64,000 nt of DNA from Yoonia ponticola (GTDB lineage: Bacteria > Pseudomonadota > Alphaproteobacteria > Rhodobacterales > Rhodobacteraceae): assembly GCF_014199395.1 (NCBI RefSeq), contig NZ_JACIJM010000005.1:1-64000 (forward strand), written 5' to 3'. The notes under the pieces were generated by a model. That model saw nothing but the letters and a program-made list of their open reading frames with translations, was not told where the DNA came from and did no database searches. Below are positions 1 to 18,112 of the stretch, piece by piece (positions within the stretch are counted from its first letter, which is position 1; each line of letters opens with the position of its first letter). A program made the position numbers and the translations under genes.

Positions 1-95
1 AGCACACGAACAACGGCATGCTGTCACCGGTTGACTATGAAATGAAACAGCAGAAAATGAACAAGGCAGGCGTCTAGGAAGTTAGGGGCACCTCA
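1..95 (+). mobile_element. Right end of an IS3-family insertion sequence
   Basis: The first bases encode the last residues of an IS3-type transposase, followed within 20 bases by TGAGGTGCCCC on the minus strand (95 back to 85). This looks like the terminal inverted repeat of an IS3-family element. The rest of the element lies outside the window, so neither the other end nor a target duplication can be seen. The IS end abuts the 3' end of the neighbouring small gene and appears to supply its stop codon. The exact boundary is inferred. Confidence 0.55.
3..77 (+). CDS. IS3-family transposase OrfB, C-terminal fragment (partial)
   Basis: Only 24 residues plus a TAG stop are inside the window, the 5' part being cut by the window edge. 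The segment GMLSPVDYE near its start matches the LSP-x-x-(F/Y)-E motif that typically closes the DDE integrase domain of IS3-family OrfB proteins, and it is followed by a short Lys/Gln-rich tail. If the rest is intact it would catalyse cut-and-paste or copy-out transposition of the element. No judgement on integrity is possible from this fragment. Confidence 0.6.
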   Translation, partial: HTNNGMLSPVDYEMKQQKMNKAGV

Positions 96-404
96 AATAA
101 TTCCATACAAACTTTCCCAAATTTCGTCACTGAAGTCGTTAGGGTCTGTGATTGGGCCTAGCCGTCTGGTTTCAGCGCGCTCGGCGTTGATCACATCCAA
201 CACCCATTCTTCTGGAGTTATCCCAGAGAACAGGAATTCACGGTCTCCACGGTTCAGTTGCGGGAATGCTCCTTGCAGGGGGTTAATACTCGCGTCGCCC
301 AAATCCCAATAGAATTTCCAATTTTCAAACGCGAGTGGATCCACATCGATGTCACGTTCATGTACCAAACCGCTCCAAGGGCTTGTCCGTCTAATTTTAG
401 CCAT
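93..404 (-). CDS. Hypothetical small acidic protein, last gene of the mob operon, probably truncated by an IS
   Basis: A 103-residue soluble protein with many Asp, Glu and Trp residues; I recognise no family and see no signal peptide or membrane segment. It starts 12 bases after the relaxase stop codon behind an AGGAAAG ribosome site, so it is probably translated from the mobilisation transcript. Its TGA stop (95-93) coincides with the first bases of the presumed IS terminal repeat. The original protein was therefore probably longer and has lost its C-terminus to the insertion. Being cargo of the mobile module, an accessory or immunity-like role is possible but unsupported. Confidence 0.6.
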   Translation of the reverse strand: MAKIRRTSPWSGLVHERDIDVDPLAFENWKFYWDLGDASINPLQGAFPQLNRGDREFLFSGITPEEWVLDVINAERAETRRLGPITDPNDFSDEIWESLYGII

Positions 405-416
405 CTCTTTTCTTTC

Positions 417-1889
417 CTATCTGTGGTATTGTGGTTGTCTGTTTCGCTCTAGCTCGCGGCCCAAGAGCGCAAGCTCGTCTTTCACCTTTATTTGCCGCTC
501 AAGTGTTTCGCCTTCTCGATCAAGTCGGTCGTTAGTCTGTTCTGTCTCTGCAAGGCTGCGCTCACTTGCTGCAAGTGCGCCTCTAGCTGGTTCTGACGGT
601 CTGCTAGCGCCTTCGTCGCGGCCAAAAAATGATCTGACAATTGTGATTGCTGACGTGCCATATTCGCGAATGCTGCTGCCAAGCTCTCGAATTCTTGCAA
701 GAGCGCTTTTTCGATCTGAGTCAGGTTCTCCGACATTCATTCCTCCAATTTTACGCAAGGCCGCGTTCCACAGGTCCAGCCTTGTTCGGCGTTCTCCGGC
801 AGGATCAGAAACATCCCGTCCGTCGTCTGCTCGACCGTTACGCTTTTCAGTCGCCAAATCATCCAAATCTCGGGACCCGCCATCATCAACGCCGACGTCA
901 TCGCGCCGATCAGCGTGCTGATCACGATCACCCTTTTCGGTCTGTCGCTGATCTCGTTCATCTCGACCTTGATCCGTTGGTTCTTCGCGTTGATGTCGTT
1001 CTGAATCCCCAAGAGTTGTTGCTGGATATCGCTCTCGAACCCATTCAGCGCGTCGCGTGATGACCGCCTCAAGTCTTTCGCGAGACTGTGCAGCTCTTCG
1101 TTCATCTTTGTCGCCAACTGCGCCCTCTGAGCCTTGGCTTTCTCTTGCAGCGCCTCGGTCAAGTTCTGCGTCGCGGGTCCAGTCTTTTTCATAGATGCGC
1201 CCTTTAAGCCGCCAGCGGTCTCCGGTGTCTGGGTCCATTGCTGTGATGTAATTTTGACCTTGGCGTGGAGTCTCAAGCCCGGCCTCATGCAAGGCCGCGA
1301 CGATGTCGGCGCGGTTCTCGATCTCACCAGTCAAGATTTTGCCTTCGAGGTAGGCCGTCACGCTGTCGCGGGTTTCACCACGTATCGGCGCTTCTGACAT
1401 CTGCTGTTGCGTCCGAGCGCGTGCAGGATCATCGGGCCGCGCCCAGCCATACTCAAAGTTGTAGGTGTCTCTGAGCGGCGCATAGGACCGCTCCCATCCC
1501 GGCGGCGCGATGTTGAAAGCCTTACCGCTTGCGAGCTCCATGCGGGGAGTCAAAAAATGCAATTCGACGCGACCGCCTTGCGTGTGACTGTGACGAACCC
1601 ATGTGATGTCATATTGATCGCGTTGCAGACCGGCGAAGGCCAGGCGCTCGAAGTCGTCCATCAATGCCGTTTGCTGTGCCTCTGTTGGCCGATCCTCTGG
1701 CGCAAAACTCAGTACGCCGGTCGAATAGGTCCATTTACGGTCGCTGCTGTCGATCAATTCGCGGGTCTGAGCAATATCTCCGCGTAACACTTCGGGGGCC
1801 GCATTTTGGCGGCCTTGGCGATCTGGATCGACAAGGTAGTTGGCGATACCACTGCCGCCGCCAGTGCCTCCGAAGAACTTAATCAACAT
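417..1889 (-). CDS. mobA: ColE1-type MobA/MbeA relaxase
   Basis: Predicted relaxase that nicks oriT and stays linked to the 5' end of the transferred strand. The 490-residue form beginning MLIKFFGGTG is chosen because MbeA-like relaxases start at this motif; an upstream ATG at 1901 would add four residues. The catalytic tyrosine should be Tyr18 in GGGSGIANYL. The metal-binding motif of the MbeA class, His-x6-Glu-x-Asn, appears as His102, Glu109 and His111, so the last ligand is His instead of Asn. The conserved block STGVLSFAPE is present near residue 56. The C-terminal half (from about residue 230) is Arg/Asp-rich and of low complexity because it is also read in another frame as mobB and mobD. 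The start overlaps the end of mobC. Confidence 0.9.
   Translation of the reverse strand: MLIKFFGGTGGGSGIANYLVDPDRQGRQNAAPEVLRGDIAQTRELIDSSDRKWTYSTGVLSFAPEDRPTEAQQTALMDDFERLAFAGLQRDQYDITWVRHSHTQGGRVELHFLTPRMELASGKAFNIAPPGWERSYAPLRDTYNFEYGWARPDDPARARTQQQMSEAPIRGETRDSVTAYLEGKILTGEIENRADIVAALHEAGLETPRQGQNYITAMDPDTGDRWRLKGRIYEKDWTRDAELDRGAARESQGSEGAVGDKDERRAAQSRERLEAVITRRAEWVRERYPATTLGDSERHQREEPTDQGRDERDQRQTEKGDRDQHADRRDDVGVDDGGSRDLDDLATEKRNGRADDGRDVSDPAGERRTRLDLWNAALRKIGGMNVGEPDSDRKSALARIRELGSSIREYGTSAITIVRSFFGRDEGASRPSEPARGALAASERSLAETEQTNDRLDREGETLERQIKVKDELALLGRELERNRQPQYHR
488..736 (-). CDS. mobD: MobD/MbeD-like mobilisation protein, nested inside mobA
   Basis: An 82-residue, Gln/Leu-rich, almost entirely helical protein, read on the same strand as mobA but in a different frame and wholly inside it. 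It begins with an (I/L)EKALLQEF block and continues as a coiled coil, the layout of ColE1 MbeD, which promotes mobilisation and entry exclusion. Its ATG is two bases beyond the mobB stop and is preceded by a full GGAGGA Shine-Dalgarno at ideal distance, strong evidence for real translation. Assignment to the MbeD family rests on layout, length and helical character rather than strong identity. Confidence 0.7.
   Translation of the reverse strand: MSENLTQIEKALLQEFESLAAAFANMARQQSQLSDHFLAATKALADRQNQLEAHLQQVSAALQRQNRLTTDLIEKAKHLSGK
737..1192 (-). CDS. mobB: MobB/MbeB-like mobilisation protein, nested inside mobA
   Basis: A 151-residue protein entirely inside the mobA coding region in another frame. 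Residues 10-80 are a charged coiled coil (LTEALQEKAKAQRAQL at the start), residues about 88-112 form one hydrophobic segment, and a short tail follows. This matches the MbeB/MobB proteins of ColE1-like plasmids, which anchor the relaxosome to the membrane. An open frame extends upstream to 1327, but the ATG at 1192 fits where the family-like helical sequence begins; the upstream ribosome site (AAAGGGCG) is only moderate. It ends directly against the mobD start, so the pair is likely translationally coupled. Confidence 0.72.
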   Translation of the reverse strand: MKKTGPATQNLTEALQEKAKAQRAQLATKMNEELHSLAKDLRRSSRDALNGFESDIQQQLLGIQNDINAKNQRIKVEMNEISDRPKRVIVISTLIGAMTSALMMAGPEIWMIWRLKSVTVEQTTDGMFLILPENAEQGWTCGTRPCVKLEE

Positions 1890-2199
1890 CGCGCACCTCA
1901 TGGATTTGTCGCAAGCGCATCAGCTCGCGCTCGATCCCCATGAGCTGCCCCATGATCGCCACGCGGTCGGCGTACTGCTGGTCACGATTGGCCCAACGCG
2001 CGAGCTGATTGAGATTGTTGCCCACACGCGCCAACTGACGCAGCAAAGCGGGGTCTATGCTGCGCAATTGTGACCTTTGTCGGACGGTCACACCGTCGAT
2101 GGCACTGCGAGCAAACTCAGAGAAGCTGACGCCTTTCGCAGCGGCTTTAGCATACCACGCAGCGCGTTCATCAGGGGTTGTGCGCAGCTTCACCCACAT
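1879..2199 (-). CDS. mobC: Plasmid mobilisation protein MobC/MbeC
   Basis: A 106-residue ribbon-helix-helix-like accessory protein that helps the relaxase open oriT. The family hallmark is present as QLARVGNNLNQLARWAN, after an N-terminal block with a DERAAWYAKAAAKG helix. The start MWVKLRTT (ATG at 2197-2199) is preferred over a longer TTG-initiated frame reaching 2250, because that extension runs into the 16-bp inverted repeat at 2237-2276. Its stop overlaps the mobA start by about 11 bases, the usual translational coupling of mobC-mobA pairs. Confidence 0.88.
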   Translation of the reverse strand: MWVKLRTTPDERAAWYAKAAAKGVSFSEFARSAIDGVTVRQRSQLRSIDPALLRQLARVGNNLNQLARWANRDQQYADRVAIMGQLMGIERELMRLRQIHEVRDVD

Positions 2200-2236
2200 G
2201 ACGCACCATCCGAGATTGCAGAACTGTTTACATGGG

Positions 2237-2276
2237 CCTTCGGTTTCCAAATCTTCATATATTTGGAAACCGAAGG
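2237..2276. repeat. Perfect 16-bp inverted repeat upstream of mobC
   Basis: CCTTCGGTTTCCAAAT (2237-2252) is repeated exactly in inverted form at 2261-2276, with an 8-base spacer. Neither side is followed by a T tract, so it is not a standard terminator. It sits 38 bases upstream of the mobC start between rep and mob, where oriT or a MobC operator is expected. Confidence 0.85.
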
Positions 2277-2340
2277 TGCTGCATCGGCTGAAAGCCGATT
2301 GAGGGGATCGAAGGGGAGGCGGAGCCCCCCCTCGCCAGCT

Positions 2341-2410
2341 TTTTGTGAGCCCACGCGCAGCGTGGCCACAAAAGTATGCTGGCCATCTACGCTAAGCCAA
2401 ACTTTACACG
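2341..2410 (-). other. Candidate origin of transfer (ColE1-like nic region)
   Basis: On the minus strand, bases 2410 to 2390 read GTGTAAAGTTTGGCTTAGCG. The ColE1/pBR322 bom nic region reads GTGTATACTGGCTTAAC and is cut between TGG and CTTA, so the expected cut here is between 2397 and 2396. Next to it is an imperfect inverted repeat at 2341-2374 (TTTTGTG ... CACAAAA, with CCACGC/GCGTGG inside). The match to bom is from memory of that sequence, and the repeat lies on the 3' side of the putative nick, so the exact site is uncertain. Confidence 0.45.
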
Positions 2411-2413
2411 TCA

Positions 2414-3268
2414 TCATTTCAACAGACCCACAGCTCGCAAGGCCGCATCACTGACGGCGGCACTCTTCCGCAATTGAGCGACTTGTGTCGGAGTGATGTG
2501 TTTGCACATTGGGCTTGCGCTGGCGATCCATGCAACGAGACGTTCTTGATGAGCTGCAGACAATTCTTCTACAGCCCAGTTTTGACTACGCAGCTCTTCG
2601 ACGTACGTTTGCCAGCGTCGTGACTTGAACCAATTATCGGAAAAGCAGACCCGAGATCGGGTAAATCCTTCGGTCTCGGCGGCGTAGGTCTTCACGGCAT
2701 GGTGCAGCTCGTCTGCAGCGACGCCTTCCGCAATCGCAATTTCAATTTGCGAGAAACAGGTTGTACGGTCCCGAATGCGATCCGCCGGAAAACTGGTAAG
2801 AATTTTCTTGAGGTCAACAGCCACCTCTGCCTCGCGCTGGCGCGTAGGTGGTTTATGGATGGTTTTAGGATGGTTTGGGGGCCGTGCTGGCCCCGGTACC
2901 CCGGCCACAGTGGCCCCCGTACCGGGGCCAGACTGGACGGGGGCCACTGTGGATCCCGTCTCAATCTCGGGTTCAAGTGTGGGTTCCAGCGCCTCGACCT
3001 TGGCAAGATCGATCCGGTAGACGACGGTGAAACCGTTCTTGCAGGTGCGCGAACCGGTCTCGACGAGTATACCTTCCTTCAGGAACGCGCGCACGGCTCG
3101 CTTGACTGTGGTCTCTCCCAGTTCGGTATGCCGCTGAATCGTGCCCTTGGAGCACCAGATGCCAGACCCATCATCGCTCGCCTTGTCCGCTAGAAACATG
3201 ATGATCTGCTTGCGCGTTGCGCTGCCGAACTTTCGTTCCGCGCATATGTTTGCAACCCGCCAGCTCAT
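2414..3268 (-). CDS. Helix-turn-helix protein, probable replication initiator of the mobile element
   Basis: A 284-residue protein. Residues about 10-85 form a winged helix-turn-helix (WCSKGTIQRHTELGETTVKR is the recognition part), of the type found at the start of phage and small-plasmid replication proteins. A Gly/Pro/Thr-rich linker follows at about residues 105-145, then a helical C-terminal domain with conserved Trp (SDNWFKSRRWQTY). It lies upstream of the mob operon on the same strand, the common rep-mob order of small mobilisable plasmids. No nucleotide-polymerising motif is visible, so its role as an initiator is inferred from context; a transcription regulator is the alternative. Confidence 0.55.
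   Translation of the reverse strand: MSWRVANICAERKFGSATRKQIIMFLADKASDDGSGIWCSKGTIQRHTELGETTVKRAVRAFLKEGILVETGSRTCKNGFTVVYRIDLAKVEALEPTLEPEIETGSTVAPVQSGPGTGATVAGVPGPARPPNHPKTIHKPPTRQREAEVAVDLKKILTSFPADRIRDRTTCFSQIEIAIAEGVAADELHHAVKTYAAETEGFTRSRVCFSDNWFKSRRWQTYVEELRSQNWAVEELSAAHQERLVAWIASASPMCKHITPTQVAQLRKSAAVSDAALRAVGLLK
2887..2952. repeat. Two overlapping inverted repeats inside the rep-like gene
   Basis: A 13-bp perfect inverted repeat (CTGGCCCCGGTAC at 2887-2899; complement at 2919-2931) overlaps a 16-bp perfect inverted repeat (CCACAGTGGCCCCCGT at 2905-2920; complement at 2937-2952). They share bases 2919-2920, and the two hairpins cannot form fully at once. The DNA encodes the Gly/Pro-rich linker of the protein. 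Confidence 0.85.
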
Positions 3269-3423
3269 TGGAAGGCCCCGAATTGGGCAAAGACGTGCGA
3301 AATTTGTACAGGTTTTGTACGAGATTTCCGCCGTTTCAGCAGAATTCGGCCCGAAAGCTCACGGGACTTTCTGCACGCTCCTGCACAAAGCCCTGTAAAT
3401 AATCCATATTTTTTAGGTGTTTT

Positions 3424-3500
3424 TGGTGACCCCGATTGGATTCGAACCAATAACCTGCCCCTTAGGAGGGGGCTGCTCTATCCAGTTGAGCCACGGGACC
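3424..3500 (-). tRNA. tRNA-Arg (anticodon CCT)
   Basis: A complete cloverleaf is visible on the minus strand: acceptor GGTCCCG/CGGGGTC, D stem GCTC/GAGC, anticodon stem GCCCC/GGGGC with loop CTCCTAA (anticodon CCT), T arm ATTGG-TTCGAAT-CCAAT, discriminator A, and an encoded CCA. It reads AGG codons. Its 3' end points toward the mobilisation module, making it the likely attachment site of that element. The divergent LacI-type regulator starts 127 bases away. Confidence 0.96.
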
Positions 3501-3626
3501 ACGGGGTGATCCTTGCCGCGCTTTTGCTCAATCGTCAACGGTGCTGTCGTCGTTCGTGACCTTCCCCTTGGACAAGCCCCTGCAGAATGGCTAACAAGGT
3601 TGCAAAGATAGTATCAGGACTACACC

Positions 3627-4652
3627 GTGAACCCACCCCCACGCCGCCCGCTTACCCTTCGTGATGTGTCTGAAGCCTCTGGCGTTAGTGAAATGACGGT
3701 CAGTCGCGTTTTGCGCAACAAGGGCGATGTCAGTGCTGCCACGCGCACCAAGGTGCAAGAAGCTGCAAAGCGGTTGGGCTATGTCCCGAATAAAATCGCA
3801 GGGTCGCTGGCCTCTAGTCGTGTGAACCTTGTCGGGGTTGTGATCCCGTCGTTGAGCAACATGGTATTTCCCGAAGTTTTGTCCGGTATTTCCGAGCGGC
3901 TCGACGACACGGGGCTTCAGCCAGTGGTCGGTGTGACTGATTATCTGCCTGAAAAGGAAGAGAAAGTTCTGTTTGAGATGCTCAGCTGGCGCCCGTCAGG
4001 CGTGATCATAGCAGGGCTGGAACATTCCGAAGCGTCAGAGGCGATGCTGCGTCAGGCAGGCATTCCCGTGATCGAGATTATGGACGTTGACGGGGTGCAA
4101 ATCGATTCCTGCGTCGGGATTTCGCATCGCCGGGCGGGCCGCATGATGGCCGAGCAGATCATCGAAGCTGGGTACAAGCGGATCGGTTTTATGGGCACCA
4201 AAATGCCCCGTGACCATCGCGCCCGCAAGCGGTTCGAGGGCTTCACCCGCACACTGGCCAAAGCTGGCATCGAGATCGCGGATCAAGATTTCTACTCTGG
4301 CGGTTCGGCCTTGGCAAAAGGTCGCGAGATGACGCAATCCATGCTGGAACGTACGCCTGACGTCGATTTCCTGTATTTTTCCAATGACATGATCGGCGCT
4401 GGCGGGCTGCTTTACCTGCTGGAAAAAGGCATCGATGTGCCGGGCCAAATCGGGCTTGCTGGTTTCAACGGGGTCGAATTACTGGACGGGCTACCGATGC
4501 AGCTAGCCACGATGGATGCTTGCCGCAAAGAGATCGGTTTGGCTGCGGCCGACATGATCGCCAAGCATTACGCCGAGGGTGCTGACAGCTACGAGCGCCG
4601 GATCGAGTTGGAACCAAAGTTGGCGCTTGGCCAGACATTGCTGCGTCGTTAA
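3627..4652 (+). CDS. LacI-family transcriptional regulator
   Basis: A 341-residue repressor. Residues 10-32 form the LacI helix-turn-helix (LRDVSEASGVSEMTVSRVLR), a hinge helix follows (VPNKIAGSLASSR), and residues from about 62 form the periplasmic-binding-protein-like effector domain, starting at LVGVVIPSLSNMVFPEV. It resembles the GntR/IdnR-type branch. The start codon is GTG at 3627 with only a weak ribosome site. It is convergent with the amine oxidase gene and next to the putrescine genes, which it may control, though the effector cannot be read from sequence. The intergenic space before it carries only the tRNA promoter region. Confidence 0.9.
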   Translation: MNPPPRRPLTLRDVSEASGVSEMTVSRVLRNKGDVSAATRTKVQEAAKRLGYVPNKIAGSLASSRVNLVGVVIPSLSNMVFPEVLSGISERLDDTGLQPVVGVTDYLPEKEEKVLFEMLSWRPSGVIIAGLEHSEASEAMLRQAGIPVIEIMDVDGVQIDSCVGISHRRAGRMMAEQIIEAGYKRIGFMGTKMPRDHRARKRFEGFTRTLAKAGIEIADQDFYSGGSALAKGREMTQSMLERTPDVDFLYFSNDMIGAGGLLYLLEKGIDVPGQIGLAGFNGVELLDGLPMQLATMDACRKEIGLAAADMIAKHYAEGADSYERRIELEPKLALGQTLLRR

Positions 4653-4679
4653 GCGCGAATATTCCCGATAAAACGCGGC

Positions 4680-5987
4680 CTAAAGGCGGTCGCGGATACT
4701 GTACCAGATCATCGCGGCAACCAGTAGCGGCGTGCGTAATGCAGCCCCACCAGGGAACGTATGCGTGGGCACCGACGCCATCACATCAAACTTTTCGGCA
4801 TGTCCCGCGATAGCATCCGCCGCGATCTTGCCGCCCAATGTCGCCATGGCAACGCCGTGTCCAGAATAGCCGCTGGCGGTCAGCACATTCCCAGCCACGC
4901 GCGCAAAATGCGGCATCCGGTTCATCGTGATGCCAAGCGTGCCACCCCACGCGTAGTCGATTTTGACATCTGCCAGTTGCGGGAAAATCTCGGACATCGG
5001 TTTACGAACGGTCGCGGCAATGTCACTAGGAAAGCGATAGCCGTAACTTTCGCCGCCGCCGAATAACATGCGATTATCATCAGACAGTCGGAAGTAATTG
5101 ATCACGAATTTACTGTCCGCTACCGCGTGATTATACTTGATCAAGCCCTTTGCGCTGTCATCATCCAGCGGTTCAGTCGCAGCAATGAAGTTGTTGATGG
5201 GCATGACTTTTTTCGCGACGTTTCCGTCCAGACCGCCAAGATATCCGTTACAGCCCATCACCACATAAGACGCTTTCACATCTGCCGTATTGGTACTGAT
5301 CGTGACGGTTGATCCATGCACGAGGCCCGTCACTTTGGACCCCTCAAAAATCCGCACGCCAGCATCGCGTGCTGCCCGCGCAAGCCCCAAGGCATAGCGT
5401 AGCGGGTGGATATGGCCGCTGCCCATATCGAGCGCGCCACCGTGATAGGCCTGTGACCCAACGTGGTCGTGCATCGCAGCGCGGTCTAACGCGGTCATTT
5501 GCGTGTAGCCGTAAACCTTTTCCAGATGGGCGGCGTATTCGTGAAATTCGGGGACAAATCGCGCACGATGTGCCGCCTCGATCACGCCGTCATGGAACGG
5601 AACATCCATCGCGTGTGTCTTGATCAGGTCTTTGACCAATTGCACCGACTCGAGCGACATGTCCCACAGCGCCTTAGCAGGCCCCATGCCGACCATCTTT
5701 TCGACGCTGTCCATTTCAACCCGCTGTCCAGTTCCGACTTGCCCGCCATTGCGACCCGACGCGCCAAAGCCCACGCGCTGCGCCTCAAGCAGCACAACGT
5801 CGTAGCCCTTTTGCGCAAGGTGAAGTGCGGCTGCCAGCCCCGTGTACCCGCCGCCAATGACGCAAACGTCGCAAGTGATTGTGCCCTCTGCCGCCGAAAA
5901 GGGCGGCAGGGGTGTTGCTGATGCGGCGTAGTAGGACGCGGGGTACGCGCCCTGTTTGTCATTGGCGGTGAGCAGGTCGAGGGTCAC
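4680..5987 (-). CDS. FAD-dependent amine oxidase (PuuB/DAO family)
   Basis: A 435-residue flavoprotein with an N-terminal Rossmann motif (DVCVIGGGYTGLAAALHLAQ, residues 40-59) and the family block GASGRNGGQVGTGQR, as in gamma-glutamylputrescine oxidase and related DAO enzymes. It would oxidise an amine to an aldehyde with release of hydrogen peroxide. I take the GTG at 5987 as start because it overlaps the TGA of the upstream aminotransferase (GTGA), typical translational coupling; an in-frame ATG at 6017 lies inside that gene. With the aminotransferase and the potFGHI-like importer it forms a putrescine-use cluster. The true substrate is inferred. Confidence 0.85.
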   Translation of the reverse strand: MTLDLLTANDKQGAYPASYYAASATPLPPFSAAEGTITCDVCVIGGGYTGLAAALHLAQKGYDVVLLEAQRVGFGASGRNGGQVGTGQRVEMDSVEKMVGMGPAKALWDMSLESVQLVKDLIKTHAMDVPFHDGVIEAAHRARFVPEFHEYAAHLEKVYGYTQMTALDRAAMHDHVGSQAYHGGALDMGSGHIHPLRYALGLARAARDAGVRIFEGSKVTGLVHGSTVTISTNTADVKASYVVMGCNGYLGGLDGNVAKKVMPINNFIAATEPLDDDSAKGLIKYNHAVADSKFVINYFRLSDDNRMLFGGGESYGYRFPSDIAATVRKPMSEIFPQLADVKIDYAWGGTLGITMNRMPHFARVAGNVLTASGYSGHGVAMATLGGKIAADAIAGHAEKFDVMASVPTHTFPGGAALRTPLLVAAMIWYSIRDRL

Positions 5988-7375
5988 GCTGTCATATGCC
6001 CTTCGGATTTCGCCCAAGCATAGGTTTCGTCTAGCGATTTCACAGCGCGGTCCATCAACGTGTCGATCTCGTCTTTCTTGATCACAAGCGGCGGCGAAAT
6101 GATCATGCGATCACCGACGTGGCGCATCACAAGGCCATTATCAAAGCAACGTGTCCGGCAATAATAGCCCAATGCACCCGATGTTTTGAACGCAGCGCGG
6201 CTTTCCTTGTGCGGCGTCATCGCGACGGATGCCATCATGCCGGAAATTGACGCTTGGCCGATCAGGGGGTGATCGGTCAGTGCTTCCCATTTCTCTTTGA
6301 GGTAGGGCGCAGTTTCATCGCGGACGGTGTCAACGATGCCTTCTTCCTCAAGAATACGCAGATTTTCCAAGGCAACAGCGGCCGAAACAGGGTGGCCGGA
6401 ATAGGTGTAGCCGTGGTTGAAATCGCCTGCGTTATTGATCACATCAGCGACCTCGTCACAGACCAGAGACCCGCCAATCGGCGCATAGCCAGACGACAAG
6501 CCCTTGGCGATTGTCATGATGTGCGGCTTGATGTTGTAGGTCGTAGAGCCGAACCAATTGCCGGTACGTCCAAAGCCGCAGATCACTTCGTCAGCGATCA
6601 GCAGGATGTCGTGGGCGTCGCAAATGCGCTGGATTTCAGGCCAGTAGGTTTCCGGCGGCACGATCACACCGCCAGCACCCTGCACGGGTTCGGCGATGAA
6701 CGCGGCGATTTTGTCTTCGCCGTAATGGTTGATCGCAGCCTCAAGCTGACGGGCGCGTTCAAGACCGAAGTCTTCGGGGGACATGTCACCGCCTTCGGCC
6801 CACCAGTTTGGCTGATCAATGTGGTGAATATCGGGAATCGGTAGCCCGCCTTGCTGGTGCATCGGGATCATCCCACCGAGGCTGGCACCCCCCAAGGTTG
6901 AACCGTGGTAGCCATTCTTGCGGCTGATGATGATTTTCTTTTCGGGCTGGCCCTTGGCGGACCAATAATGGCGGACCATGCGGATATTCGTGTCGTTGGC
7001 CTCTGACCCAGAGCCCGCGTAAAACACGTTGTTGAACCCTTCTGGTGCAAGCTCTGCCAGCTTCGCAGACAATGCGATCACCGGAACATGGGTCGTCATG
7101 AAAAACGTGTTGTAGTACGGCAATTCGCGCATTTGACGCGCAGCCGCTTCGGCCAATTCGTTGCGCCCATAGCCAATGTTTACACACCAAAGACCGGCCA
7201 TCGCATCCAGCAATGTCTTGCCCTCGCTGTCGGTCAACATCACGCCATCGGCGGATGTAATGACCCGCGCACCAGCCTTGGCCAACTCTGCGCCTGCGGT
7301 GAACGGATGCATGTGGTGCGCAGCATCAAGTGCCTGCAATTCTGCAGTCGGCATGTGGTTTGTTATTTTATTCAT
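5984..7375 (-). CDS. Class III aminotransferase, probable putrescine/omega-amine:pyruvate transaminase
   Basis: A 463-residue PLP enzyme. The PLP lysine is Lys291 in IMTIAKGLSSGYAPIGG, and Asp262 in LLIADEVICGFGR pairs with the pyridine nitrogen; GSGSEANDTNIRM (121-133) is the phosphate-binding segment. It resembles SpuC-type transaminases that convert putrescine to 4-aminobutanal with pyruvate as acceptor. The start MNKITN at 7375, behind AAGGATG, is preferred over a longer open frame to 7519 that would fill the divergent promoter region. Neighbours: amine oxidase gene directly downstream and a divergent polyamine-binding protein gene. Confidence 0.88.
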   Translation of the reverse strand: MNKITNHMPTAELQALDAAHHMHPFTAGAELAKAGARVITSADGVMLTDSEGKTLLDAMAGLWCVNIGYGRNELAEAAARQMRELPYYNTFFMTTHVPVIALSAKLAELAPEGFNNVFYAGSGSEANDTNIRMVRHYWSAKGQPEKKIIISRKNGYHGSTLGGASLGGMIPMHQQGGLPIPDIHHIDQPNWWAEGGDMSPEDFGLERARQLEAAINHYGEDKIAAFIAEPVQGAGGVIVPPETYWPEIQRICDAHDILLIADEVICGFGRTGNWFGSTTYNIKPHIMTIAKGLSSGYAPIGGSLVCDEVADVINNAGDFNHGYTYSGHPVSAAVALENLRILEEEGIVDTVRDETAPYLKEKWEALTDHPLIGQASISGMMASVAMTPHKESRAAFKTSGALGYYCRTRCFDNGLVMRHVGDRMIISPPLVIKKDEIDTLMDRAVKSLDETYAWAKSEGHMTA

Positions 7376-7479
7376 CAGATGCATCCTTTTTGGGCTGAGA
7401 TTTGCCATTTTGCGTTGTGTCGCGGTCTGAATGCGGTGCAGCAACGCGCTCTTGTATTGCATTGGCTTTGCGAAATTGA

Positions 7480-7496
7480 TCATATCGAGAATATGA
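7480..7496. promoter_or_regulatory. Inverted repeat in the divergent potF/aminotransferase promoter region
   Basis: TCATAT and ATATGA face each other around five bases, 39 bases upstream of the potF start, in the only intergenic space between the two divergent putrescine operons. It is a plausible operator for the nearby LacI-type regulator, but no consensus allows this to be tested by eye. Confidence 0.35.
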
Positions 7497-7534
7497 GGGC
7501 AAGAGACTCTCACTGACATCGACGGGAGATACCG

Positions 7535-8614
7535 ATGAAAAAGATTGCTTTGTTGCTGGCCACGACAACATTCGCCAGCGCTGCATTCGCCGAAGAAGTG
7601 CGGGTTTACAACTGGTCTGACTATATCGACGAAGACTTGCTGACCAAATTCGAAGAAGAAACAGGTATCGACCTGATTTATGACGTGTTTGATAGCAACG
7701 AAGTGCTTGAGACAAAAATGCTCGCAGGATCATCGGGTTACGATGTTGTGGTGCCGACTGGTGACTTCCTTCAGCGTCAAATTTCTGCGGGTGCGTTCCA
7801 GCCTCTCGATATGGATCAACTGCCAAATGCAGGCAATCTTTGGGACATTATCGAAGCGCGGACATCGCAGTACGATCCCGAAAACGCCTATTCAATCAAC
7901 TACATGTGGGGCACGACTGGCCTTGGCGTGAACGTCGCAAAGGTCGCTGAAGCCTTGGGTGAAGATGCTCCGATCAACTCGCTTGATCTGATTTTCAACC
8001 CTGAGAACATGGAAAAACTGTCCGCGTGTGGCGTGTATTTCCTTGATGCCCCGTCGGAAGTGATTCCTGCGGCATTGAACTACCTTGGTGAAGACCCGAA
8101 CAGCGAAGATCCTGATGCGATTGCCAAAGCCGAAGAGGTCCTGATGGGCGTGCGCCCGTACATCCAGAAGTTCCATTCGTCCGAGTATATCAACGCGCTT
8201 GCGAACGGCGAAGTTTGCGTGGCATTCGGTTGGTCTGGCGACATTTTGCAGGCGCGTGACCGCGCTGCCGAGGCCGACAATGGCGTCGAAATCGCGTATA
8301 ACGCTCCGACAGAAGGTGCGTTGATGTGGTTCGACCAAATGGCGATCCCGGTGGATGCGCCAAACACAGAAGCTGCGCACACGTTTCTGAACTTTATTCT
8401 TGATGCGCAGAACATGGCGGCAGCGTCGAATTACGTTTATTACGCAAACGGCAATCTGGCGTCACAAGAGTTCTTGATCGAGGATGTGATCGGGGATACT
8501 GCGATTTACCCGGACGCCGCGACGCTCGAAAATCTGTACACAAAGGCCCCTTACGACTCGCGTGTGCAGCGGACGATTACGCGTTTGTGGACCAAAATTA
8601 AGTCCGGAACCTAA
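7535..8614 (+). CDS. potF: Periplasmic polyamine-binding protein (PotF-like)
   Basis: A 359-residue extracellular binding protein with a clear signal peptide (MKKIALLLATTTFASAAFA, cleavage expected after Ala19). The mature protein begins EEVRVYNWSDYIDEDLLTKF, the characteristic opening of PotF/SpuD putrescine-binding proteins, where the Trp and Ser/Asp residues contact the ligand. It hands polyamine to the PotH-PotI permease. The ribosome site GGGAG precedes the ATG. It is the first gene of the potFGHI operon and is separated from the next gene by a GC-rich hairpin, which may keep its message more abundant. Confidence 0.93.
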   Translation: MKKIALLLATTTFASAAFAEEVRVYNWSDYIDEDLLTKFEEETGIDLIYDVFDSNEVLETKMLAGSSGYDVVVPTGDFLQRQISAGAFQPLDMDQLPNAGNLWDIIEARTSQYDPENAYSINYMWGTTGLGVNVAKVAEALGEDAPINSLDLIFNPENMEKLSACGVYFLDAPSEVIPAALNYLGEDPNSEDPDAIAKAEEVLMGVRPYIQKFHSSEYINALANGEVCVAFGWSGDILQARDRAAEADNGVEIAYNAPTEGALMWFDQMAIPVDAPNTEAAHTFLNFILDAQNMAAASNYVYYANGNLASQEFLIEDVIGDTAIYPDAATLENLYTKAPYDSRVQRTITRLWTKIKSGT

Positions 8615-15361: not shown

Positions 15362-16455
15362 GGGAGGATCGCGAGCTCCTTTGAGAATGTCGTCAGGGAG
15401 ATGCAGCCGTCGTCTGTGATCAAGACGTCGTCTTCTATGCGGACTCCGAAGTTGCCGATCTCGTAGAGGCCGGGTTCGTTGGTGTAGACTGTACCAGCGG
15501 GCAGGGCGGTGTGGTTGCCGCGCATGATATAGGGTGCTTCGTGGACGTCGCGCCCAAGACCGTGGCCCGTTTTTGTACGGATGCGGTCGGCGTAGGGTGT
15601 GGATTCGAGGTGGCTTGTGACGGCGTCGTCGATTTCGTGGGCCGTGACGCCTGCTTTGGTCATTTTGTGACCGATCAGGTTCGCTTGGAGAACGGCGTCG
15701 TAGACGGCGCGTTGTTCTTCGCTGGCGTGGCCAAGGAAAAATGTGCGTGTGATGTCAGCGGCGAAACCGTTTTTGCGCGCGCCAAAGTCGATCAGGATCG
15801 CGTCGCCCTCTTTGATTGGGGTGTCGCCCGCGTGGGCATGCGGCATGGCGGTGTTGGCACCCGCGACGACGATGGGCGAAAAGGACTGTCCATCTGCGCC
15901 TTCGGCAAAGAGGGCTTGCACGAGGGTTTGTTCGACTTGTTTTTCGGTTTGCCCCGGCTTGATCGTGGTCAGGGTGTGCGCCAATGCGCGTTCTGAAATG
16001 CCGATCGCCTCGCGAAGAGCGGCGATGTCTGCGTCTGTTTTAACGATACGCAGCGCGGAGATCTCGCGTTCGGCGTCTGTGATTTTCAGGTCGGGCTGTG
16101 CATTAAGGAATGCGTGATGCACAAACACACGCATGACTTGGCCCTCAACAGCAAGAGAGGTGATGTCGAGATGTTGAGTGAGTGCTGCAAAGGCGTCATC
16201 GTAACCAGTTTGGTCGCGCCAATCAAAAACAGCGCCGTCAAAACCGACCTGCGCCCAACTGCCGAGTTCCAAGTTCGGAACAAGCGCCGCGGCGGGGCCA
16301 TTTGCAGGGATGACAACGACTAGAGGCCGTTCGTGGCTCATAAATTCATGGCCAATGGCACGGGTGAAATTCGGGCCGGGGACAAGCGCCACGGCGTCAA
16401 CGCCGAGATCGGCGGCAACAGCGGCATAGGCGGCAAGGCGATCAATCAGCATCAA
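15355..16455 (-). CDS. M24-family Xaa-Pro peptidase
   Basis: A 366-residue cytoplasmic aminopeptidase P/prolidase-like enzyme. An N-terminal creatinase-like domain (to about residue 135) is followed by the pita-bread catalytic domain. The five metal ligands can be placed: two Asp in IDFGARKNGFAADITRT, His in GHGLGRDVHE, Glu in YTNEPGLY and Glu in GVRIEDDV, so it should be active. It lies between the binding-protein gene and dppB. This suggests the imported peptide has proline or another blocked second residue that needs this enzyme. A creatinase-like substrate is the alternative. Confidence 0.88.
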   Translation of the reverse strand: MMLIDRLAAYAAVAADLGVDAVALVPGPNFTRAIGHEFMSHERPLVVVIPANGPAAALVPNLELGSWAQVGFDGAVFDWRDQTGYDDAFAALTQHLDITSLAVEGQVMRVFVHHAFLNAQPDLKITDAEREISALRIVKTDADIAALREAIGISERALAHTLTTIKPGQTEKQVEQTLVQALFAEGADGQSFSPIVVAGANTAMPHAHAGDTPIKEGDAILIDFGARKNGFAADITRTFFLGHASEEQRAVYDAVLQANLIGHKMTKAGVTAHEIDDAVTSHLESTPYADRIRTKTGHGLGRDVHEAPYIMRGNHTALPAGTVYTNEPGLYEIGNFGVRIEDDVLITDDGCISLTTFSKELAILPC

Positions 16456-16483
16456 GAAAAATCCGGGAAAAGTGTGGTTGAAA

Positions 16484-16507
16484 GGGGCGGCACAGATGCG
16501 CCGCCCC
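16484..16507 (-). promoter_or_regulatory. GC-rich stem-loop between dppA and the M24 peptidase gene
   Basis: GGGGCGGC (16484-16491) pairs perfectly with GCCGCCCC (16500-16507) around eight bases. On the minus strand it is followed by only three T residues. It may partly terminate transcription or stabilise the dppA message, giving more binding protein than permease, as does the hairpin behind potF. Confidence 0.6.
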
Positions 16508-16522
16508 GGCTACTAATCTGAA

Positions 16523-18112
16523 TTACTCAGAAAGGCCAACTTGGTTAAAGATGTGGCCACCAAGTGGGTGAACAACATAGCCTTCAACTTCTGGACGCAT
16601 TGTCATGAAGACAACAGAGTGCGCGATGGTGGCCCAAGGTGCTTGGTCCTTGAAGATTGCTTGCGCTTCTTCATACAACGCTGTCCGCTCTTCTTGCGAG
16701 GACAGTGTTTTCGCTTCTTGGATCACTGCGTCGAACTCTTCGTTGCACCATTGTGCGCGGTTTGAACCACCTACGCCGTCACAACCGAGCAGAACAGCGA
16801 GGAAGTTGTCTGGATCGCCGTTGTCGCCTGTCCAACCGAGCAGAACTGCACCGTCACGGTCAACGTCGCTGGACCGCTCAAGGTATTCACCCCATTCGTA
16901 GGAAACGATTTCAACATCGACGCCAACTTTGCTGAAGTCTTCTTGCATCAACTCGGCCATGCGGCGTGCGTTCGGGTTGTATGGACGCTGAACCGGCATT
17001 GCCCAGATTTTCAGTTCCAGATCTTCAACACCTTCAGCCGCCAGCATTTCCATGGCTGCTTCTGGGTTGTATTCGTCATCCACGGTGTTCTCGTCGTAGG
17101 ACCACATGGTTGGCGGGATCGGGTTTTTCGCGATTTCGCCGGAGCCTTGGAAGACCACGTCGATGATTGCTTGCTTGTCGATGGACATGTTCAACGCTTT
17201 ACGCACGTTGGCGTTGTCGAACGGAGGCATCTGCGTGTTGTAGGCAAGGTAGCCGACGTTCAGGCCTTCTTGTTCCATGACAACGATGTCTTCTGCGCTT
17301 TGCATGTCAGCAACGTCTGCAGGGTTCGGGTAGGCCATGACGTGGCATTCGCCAGCTTGGACTTTCTGGTAACGTACTGACGCATCAGGTGTAATGGCAA
17401 AGATCAGGCTTTCGACTTTTGCTGGATCACCCCAGTAGTTGTCGTTGCGTAGATAGCGGATAACGGCGTCTTTTTGGTAGGCTTGGAACGTGAACGGGCC
17501 TGTGCCGATTGGCGCTTGGTTTACCATTTCAGGTGTGCCAGCTTCCATCATGGCGTCGGCGTATTCTTTGGACACGATTGACGCGAAATCCATTGCCATG
17601 TTCGCGATGAACGGAGCTTCTGTCCGTGTCAGGTTAAATTTGACGGTGTAATCGTCAACTTTTTCGATGCTGGACACGAGTTCTGGCATCGACATGCTTG
17701 AGTAATATTCCCAAGAGCCGCCGGACACTTGGTTATATGGGTTTTCTGAATTGCCTTGACGGTCAAATGTGAAAATCACGTCGTCCGCGTTGAAGTCGCG
17801 TGTTGGTGTAAAGTCCGCATTTGAGTGGAATGAAACGCCCTGACGCAGGTTAAATGTGACGGACAGGCCGTCTTCGGAGACTTCCCAGCTTTCGGCAAGG
17901 CCCGGGACCGTTTCCGTTGTGCCGACTTTGAATTCTGAAAGACGGTTGTAGACGGGGTGGCTGGACGCATCAAAGGTTGTGCCAGATGTGTACAGAGCCG
18001 GGTCAAAACCCTCTGGTGAACCTTCGGAACAATAAACGAGGGATTGCGCCATCGCCGATGTGCCAACGGTTGCCAGAAGCATCCCGGTCGCAAGTGTTGT
18101 TTTAATAGACAT
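16523..18112 (-). CDS. dppA: Periplasmic peptide-binding protein (DppA-like)
   Basis: A 529-residue family 5 extracellular binding protein. The start at 18112 is chosen for its signal peptide (MSIKTTLATGMLLATVGTSA, cleavage expected after AMA) and the GGAGAG ribosome site; an open frame to 18358 would overlap the upstream regulator. The mature protein begins QSLVYCSEGSPEGFDPALYT, the opening found in DppA proteins, which bind di- and tripeptides. It starts 31 bases after the XRE-cupin regulator gene, suggesting one operon. Confidence 0.93.
   Translation of the reverse strand: MSIKTTLATGMLLATVGTSAMAQSLVYCSEGSPEGFDPALYTSGTTFDASSHPVYNRLSEFKVGTTETVPGLAESWEVSEDGLSVTFNLRQGVSFHSNADFTPTRDFNADDVIFTFDRQGNSENPYNQVSGGSWEYYSSMSMPELVSSIEKVDDYTVKFNLTRTEAPFIANMAMDFASIVSKEYADAMMEAGTPEMVNQAPIGTGPFTFQAYQKDAVIRYLRNDNYWGDPAKVESLIFAITPDASVRYQKVQAGECHVMAYPNPADVADMQSAEDIVVMEQEGLNVGYLAYNTQMPPFDNANVRKALNMSIDKQAIIDVVFQGSGEIAKNPIPPTMWSYDENTVDDEYNPEAAMEMLAAEGVEDLELKIWAMPVQRPYNPNARRMAELMQEDFSKVGVDVEIVSYEWGEYLERSSDVDRDGAVLLGWTGDNGDPDNFLAVLLGCDGVGGSNRAQWCNEEFDAVIQEAKTLSSQEERTALYEEAQAIFKDQAPWATIAHSVVFMTMRPEVEGYVVHPLGGHIFNQVGLSE

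Follow-up and report, generated by a model that had tools for sequence, protein, structure and literature searches.

Genes nested within a relaxase gene are a known feature of ColE1-type mobilization modules (mbeA/mbeB/mbeC/mbeD; MOBP5/HEN), in which the relaxase gene holds two consecutive genes in its +1 frame and MobC/MbeC is encoded upstream. One of the two nested products of ColE1, MbeD, has been reported to act in entry exclusion. In the gammaproteobacterial ColE-type plasmid pSNC3-Kan, mobB (2347–2865) and mobD (2872–3105) are internally encoded within mobA (1659–3212), according to the available text of its description (PMC9282650). The R1162/RSF1010 system (MOBQ) features a small membrane protein, MobB, whose gene overlaps mobA in another frame and which aids transfer (available text of PMC4655240, citing Meyer 2011). 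For the Paracoccus plasmids pMARC2 and pAES4, the available text of PMC3832669 describes overlapping mobA, mobB and mobC genes, terms the module MOBP5(HEN), and likens it to that of an Aeromonas salmonicida plasmid.

Here we consider a 64,000-nucleotide stretch, henceforth the window, from Yoonia ponticola (GCF_014199395.1, contig NZ_JACIJM010000005.1, positions 1 to 64,000), for which an earlier note, made from the letters alone, had proposed that two genes, mobB and mobD, are nested in another frame of a relaxase gene. The positions given there for both nested ORFs are exact (Table 1). Both the stop-to-start junction at 737/736, where mobD begins on the base right after the mobB stop, and the GGAGGA ahead of mobD are present in the sequence.

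Table 1. Features of the mobilization module and of the element that carries it. Positions are those of the window unless a contig (C7) is named.
Feature	Position	Strand	Remarks
mobA	417-1901	-	MOBP-type relaxase gene, 494 aa
mobB	737-1192	-	151 aa; complete ORF in the mobA +1 frame; ATG 1192, TGA 739-737
mobD	488-736	-	82 aa; complete ORF in the mobA +1 frame; ATG 736, stop ends at 488
GGAGGA, RBS-like site of mobD	741-746	-	inside the mobB 3' end; 4 nt before the mobD ATG
AAAGGG, weak SD-like site preceding mobB	1200-1205	-	read from sequence; relatives have an SD-like site in the same place
mobC, NikA/MobC-type relaxosome accessory protein	1879-2250	-	Pfam NikA-like E 5.3e-14, MobC E 6.7e-12
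probable oriT region upstream of mobC	2294-2383	-	93.3% identity to L005 over 90 bases
replication-initiation-like protein of the element	2414-3268	-	PHROG 391 E 1.7e-12, PHROG 270 E 7.7e-12
att copy, 47 bp, tRNA-Arg(CCT) 3' end	3424-3470	-	recurs once in the genome, at G000:C7:5677-5723
tRNA-Arg(CCT), integration target	3424-3500	-	ARAGORN
integrase	C7:4568-5662		adjoins the second att copy

The Relaxase

MobA aligns with the NCBIfam MbeA_E1 model over residues 5–374 (E 1.2e-45; 156.6 bits, below the cut-off of 500) and with Pfam Relaxase over residues 37–153, also below cut-off (E 3.6e-4). Motif III of the window protein reads ...H-T-Q-G-G-R-V-E-L-H-F (H-E-H). Counting the window, 47 sequences were aligned, and the motif is readable in 46; the L-H-F end is found in 46/46 and the glutamate in 45/46, with L015 having G. 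Gammaproteobacterial MbeA references read E-L-N in ten cases out of ten, while the gammaproteobacterial plasmids L053 and L059 group with the H-E-H set. Because its motif III ends in E-L-H-F, against E-L-N in the MbeA references, MobA is not of the H-E-N type; as judged from these alignments, it is a relative of MbeA, yet H-E-H rather than H-E-N at the motif III residue. Upstream, the mobC ORF is listed from a TTG, and the true start is probably further in.

Chance Openness and Conservation of the Nested Pair

The length of the +1 ORFs is by itself no evidence for genes. When mobA was shuffled 2000 times among synonymous codons, 9.25% of the shuffles held a +1 open run of at least 197 codons, the observed length, and in 9.55% the span contained one +1 stop or none. 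With ~9% of shuffles equaling it, ORF length was rejected as proof of mobB and mobD, and relatives were therefore compared. Taken alone, the shuffles would favor the view that the +1 ORFs are mere shadows, kept open by the skewed composition of the charged C-terminal half of mobA and yielding no protein.

As a MobB query reached 3 of 295 genomes of the family, that of the window among them, the wide set of relatives was built from MobA, which has matches in 52 of 394 genomes of the family (E<=1e-20), in 13 of 56 genomes of the genus and in 3652 plasmid records (E<=1e-5); both genome counts again take in the window's own. Loci were taken from the best 30 family-genome and best 16 genus-genome matches. 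Upon tblastn searches in plasmids, MobB found two records and MobD nine, one of them clearly credible in each case. The resulting 59 sequences with a mobA match comprise 53 distinct ones, window included (the window appears three times, and five other loci are present twice or identical); L003, of whose MobA only 60 residues were available, was excluded before the pair was counted.

The same consecutive +1 pair, with a single stop codon between its members, is seen in 47 of the 53 distinct mobA-bearing sequences (53/59 undeduplicated), and 45 of these 47 belong either to the family of the window or to plasmids of Rhodobacterales. Six distinct sequences have no intact consecutive pair. In L002, mobA is split across two frames, mobD is intact, and mobB is open only from inside its N-terminal half; L030, L016, L049, L057 and L058 were judged from ORF lists, and some of these may run off the end of the retrieved stretch. 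Among the 47 distinct pairs, all mobB starts and 44 mobD starts have an SD-like 4-mer between -18 and -4, whereas within this set of mobA genes 13,971 of 71,887 control positions (19%) do. The gap from mobB stop to mobD start is 0 nt in 34/47, 3 nt in 11/47 and 6 nt in 2/47, and the mobB start at 1192 is backed by an N-terminus that is kept across relatives. Within the genus, locus L037 has a MobB/MobD pair identical to that of the Yoonia plasmid L001. Starts, SD-like sites, stop-start junction and an N-terminal motif of MobD are thus all conserved, which speaks against the ORFs being shadows.

Constraint on Both Reading Frames

With the frames related as they are here, mobA codon position 3 is nested position 2, and mobA position 1 is nested position 3. 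Across 18 pairs of sequences, picked by hand and mutually non-independent (so that a pooled p-value is not to be taken literally, while the direction of the shift is plain), changes at mobA positions 1/2/3 number 346/233/1072 ahead of the overlap (3877 codons), 516/366/392 where mobB overlaps (2811 codons), 288/164/209 where mobD overlaps (1615 codons) and 93/68/143 past the overlap (292 codons). Inside the overlap, and not on either side of it, the periodicity of substitutions follows the nested frame. Between the window and L005, the same counts run 40/25/94 of 183 codons before the overlap, 65/53/52 of 150 in the mobB overlap and 30/20/20 of 81 in the mobD overlap (Fisher exact, position 3 against 1, 3e-6). 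The shift is weaker in the window's more distant pairs with L001 (p 3e-4) and L006 (p 2e-3), in both of which, even within the overlap, mobA position 3 remains marginally more variable than the other two.

That changes pile up on the nested third position only inside the overlap strongly disfavors the idea of non-coding shadows, to which we assign next to no probability. The comparison with relatives confirms the nesting of mobB and mobD in mobA as more than chance. The earlier claim that these are real genes is borne out by the kept +1 pair, the SD-like sites and the codon-position shift in relatives; across homologues the alternative frame is far from unconstrained, codon-position changes having moved to it.

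It might then be asked whether selection acts on the nested genes alone, with the C-terminal half of MobA passive and dispensable. Such a picture would suit the confinement of the Pfam relaxase match to the N-terminal part, the abundance of charged residues in the C-terminal region, and a MobA identity between the window and L005 that is lower in the mobB overlap (66/150) than ahead of the overlap (137/183). The NCBIfam MbeA alignment, however, extends well into the overlap, and an internal stop is absent from 51 of the 56 MobA matches listed (family genomes). Nested wobble changes, moreover, occur at 0.184 per codon in the mobB overlap and 0.178 in the mobD overlap, versus 0.277 at the mobA wobble position before the overlap, suggesting restraint by mobA. 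Because the MbeA alignment enters the overlap and the wobble rates differ, we hold a passive MobA half to be unlikely. A nested wobble slower than that of mobA ahead of the overlap fits constraint in both frames, and it is this dual constraint on the overlap DNA that the substitution patterns support.

Relationship of MobB and MobD to MbeB and MbeD

Single-sequence structure prediction renders MobD as a single helix over residues 2–79 (mean pLDDT 95.7). In MobB a helix is modeled at residues 6–82, with a mean pLDDT of only 66.7 and with the membrane part and tail at low confidence. MobB has one hydrophobic segment, residues 88–106 (mean hydropathy 1.94), presumed to span the membrane. The modeled N-terminal helix followed by a single hydropathy peak agrees with the description of MobB as a coiled-coil protein with one membrane segment, as does the one long helix of MobD with its description as a second coiled coil. 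Nested in a relaxase gene and running from helix to membrane segment to tail, MobB has the layout of MbeB. Because an RPKR stretch precedes the membrane segment, the short tail is predicted to be periplasmic, and a disulfide between the two cysteines near its end, C141 and C146, is therefore possible. The cysteine pair is found, by a loose pattern, in 44/47 distinct sequences, and a similar pair occurs in some gammaproteobacterial MbeB proteins (L057, L061, L066).

Direct searches at E<=10 give no match of window MobB to Pfam MbeB_N (PF04837) or the NCBIfam MbeB models, nor of window MobD to Pfam MbeD_MobD (PF04899) or the NCBIfam MbeD models; PHROGs likewise yielded no MbeB or MbeD match for either protein. 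Weak matches of the window's nested proteins to BAR_3, DUF1664 and others, as well as one to NCBIfam MakA (E 3.7e-4, 19.6 bits vs a cut-off of 320), are read as coiled-coil noise. For the relatives, we used four alignments, A1–A4, of 26 sequences each, selected visually among the 47 distinct pairs. At E<=1, MbeB_N matches 2/26 members of A1 (best L047, E 0.014, 16.1 bits vs a cut-off of 22) and MbeD_MobD matches 3/26 members of A2 (best L053, E 7.3e-14).

Profile-profile comparison employed 10 MbeB and 10 MbeD references from annotated plasmids, the MbeB reference L065 being named only ‘mobilization protein’; L053, an MbeD reference that is also in the wider mobA set, was excluded from the query alignments A3 and A4. 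By hhalign, the E-values of which apply to single comparisons, MobB is matched to MbeB at 95.4% (E 1.9e-8, 130 columns) and MobD to MbeD at 74.7% (E 2.6e-5), the latter alignment starting from MbeD residue 1. With the near set, that is, the window and six near relatives (7 sequences), the values are 96.5% (E 8e-10) and 82.8% (E 9.3e-6), respectively. Reversed MbeB as a control reaches 24.7% (near set 11.7%) and reversed MbeD 0.3% (near set 0.5%); swapped families give 0.9% and 0.6%, and 40 column-permuted templates at most 1.0% per real comparison. MobD displays an N-terminal motif LTxxExxLL (LTQIEKALL in the window; TxLExxLL in MbeD), of which T6, E9, L12 and L13 are invariant in 26/26 members of A2.

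Could the two proteins have arisen independently in alphaproteobacterial relaxase genes, their likeness to MbeB and MbeD reflecting no more than coiled-coil composition? Low pairwise identity, the failure of the window proteins to match Pfam directly, and the height of the reversed MbeB control would all be in keeping with this. Yet the ColE1 type has its nested genes in the same family of host gene, in the same frame and order and with the same junction, the TxLExxLL motif is included in a MobD–MbeD alignment that begins at the first MbeD residue, and L053, annotated as MbeD and passing the Pfam model, comes from a locus within the same mobA set. We therefore think an independent origin very improbable. 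Since near-relative profiles link MobB to MbeB and MobD to MbeD, the comparisons support a remote branch of ColE1 mbeB/mbeD, with MobB and MobD as remote homologues of MbeB and MbeD. The ColE1 mbeB/mbeD layout put forward in the earlier note accordingly survives as regards nesting, order and profile-level homology, with a family tie that is remote and direct matches that fail; of the searches with MbeB and MbeD family models suggested there, the direct Pfam/NCBIfam route found nothing for the window proteins and the profile-profile route succeeded, with controls at or below 24.7%.

The Mobilizable Element

The module had been described as lying in a roseobacter chromosome, a label for which relatives provide the basis. 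It is, rather than settled chromosome, part of an integrated mobilizable element (IME). In the same-genus genome G438, the site is empty: the window flank 3424–4700 and the C7 flank 5677–7994 meet there at exactly 47 bp (L087:1355–1401), with flank identities of 96.2% and 94.8%. Genome G163 carries a related 16.5-kb element on a single contig (L103:346–16855), bounded by 47-bp repeats at L103:346 and 16809 that differ from the window's 47 bp by at most 6 bases. Its integrase (15688–16791) matches the C7 integrase with E 1.1e-211, and the relaxase relative L005 lies between the repeats (G163:C11:9914–11380); the L005 mobA match has one internal stop, at or near the end of a 491-codon frame. On the evidence of integrase, duplicated att, empty site and single-contig relative, all read from genome sequence, the module is part of an IME at tRNA-Arg(CCT). 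We infer that window 1–3470 and G000:C7:1–5723 are the two ends of one IME, split by an assembly gap; since the first base of the window is also the first of contig C5, the middle of the element is unread, and the window side is its replication-protein and mob end.

The oriT-region candidate is also 85% identical to L002, in an alignment somewhat longer than that with L005. Its core, 13/14 bases (GGGGATCGAAGGGG / GGGGATTGAAGGGG), is common to L052 and L054 at E 0.26–0.32, too short for significance alone, and the match falls within the oriT predicted for pAES4 (= L054) in the available text of PMC3832669. VirB4, the one secretion gene searched, is represented by two genes on contigs C10 and C11, not on C5 or C7, between which the gap is unread; with these two genes elsewhere in the genome, helper-driven transfer is conceivable.

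Several side observations concern the surroundings of the module. The relatives L002 and L003, both from Rhodobacteraceae MAGs, adjoin tRNA-Arg(CCG), which hints at an element family using different tRNA-Arg genes. Cargo near the integrase, L085 (G000:C7) 592–1836 and 2017–3168 on the minus strand, encodes two proteins: an HNH endonuclease (E 1.4e-9), and one with a PLD domain whose N-terminus resembles the restriction enzyme NgoFVII (E 2.1e-5). They may constitute a module for restriction or defense. At window 3–77, on the plus strand, the peptide end HTNNGMLSPVDYEMKQQKMNKAGV resembles, by eye, an IS3-family transposase C-terminus, which, if so, would explain the contig break. A 103-aa ORF follows mobA at 93–404 on the minus strand, matching PHROG 20898 (function unknown; E 2.5e-9) and no Pfam or NCBIfam model.

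Proposed Mechanism

Overall, we consider it likely that the locus comprises three overlapping mobilization genes of an IME, with constraint in two frames, internal initiation, MobB as an anchor and helper-driven transfer. A single transcript from the mobC side would carry mobC and mobA, and ribosomes entering at internal sites would produce MobB and then, by stop-start coupling, MobD, both in the +1 frame. MobC and MobA, to go by their families, would nick oriT. The cytoplasmic helix of MobB would probably hold the relaxase or relaxosome, with its membrane segment serving as an inner-membrane anchor near the coupling protein of a helper T4SS, as for the MobB of R1162/RSF1010. MobD would probably associate with either MobB or the relaxosome, and a further role in entry exclusion, like that reported for ColE1 MbeD, is possible. 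Transfer would rely on a helper type IV secretion system. A more specific proposal, that the roseobacter-type H-E-H lineage is a functionally separate branch in which a disulfide in the MobB tail is required for docking of the relaxosome to the secretion system of an alphaproteobacterium, strikes us as doubtful.

Annotation and Comparison with Known Systems

Among five alphaproteobacterial plasmid records, only the relaxase is listed as a CDS in L001 and L056 and only the nested pair in L052, L054 and L055, both together being listed in 0/5; as these listings come from the PLSDB gene table, which is incomplete, the either/or pattern is suggestive only. That overlaps of this sort escape gene callers is correct insofar as the three-gene set is never fully listed, and incorrect insofar as the nested pair itself is listed in three records. 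Because records list relaxase or nested pair, not both, mobilization modules may be overlooked or have only half of their genes annotated, and the present case exposes this annotation gap in a distant, poorly annotated branch. Among the matches listed from the open-licence PMC literature, there is no account of a mobD-like nested gene in alphaproteobacteria. The recurrence of the pair in 47/53 distinct sequences suggests that the ColE1 triple overlap is of old standing and has been retained across a broad spectrum of relaxases. Overlaps of three genes, when long and conserved, also lend themselves to measurements of the way in which two frames share constraint.

Of the described systems, pMARC2 and pAES4 have the same module as the window, with a similar oriT core, and pAES4 (L054) has both the nested pair and H-E-H; unlike the window's element, they are small plasmids. 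Although L054 reads H-E-H at motif III, pAES4 is filed under MOBP5(HEN) in the available text of PMC3832669, and although pAES4 carries the second nested ORF, the term ‘mobD’ is counted zero times in that text. The R1162/RSF1010 relaxase is of a different family from MobA, and the likeness of its MobB to window MobB is one of layout and proposed role. pSNC3-Kan has nested mobB and mobD as here, but on a gammaproteobacterial ColE-type plasmid. With ColE1-type modules generally, the locus shares the two consecutive +1-nested genes and the upstream MobC/MbeC; it differs in its H-E-H motif III, in nested products that fall below Pfam cut-offs, and in its carrier, here an integrated element that encodes a replication-initiation protein of phage type. 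Nested mobB and mobD within mobA are thus of a kind already known from ColE-type plasmids, and the case in the window is a real one.
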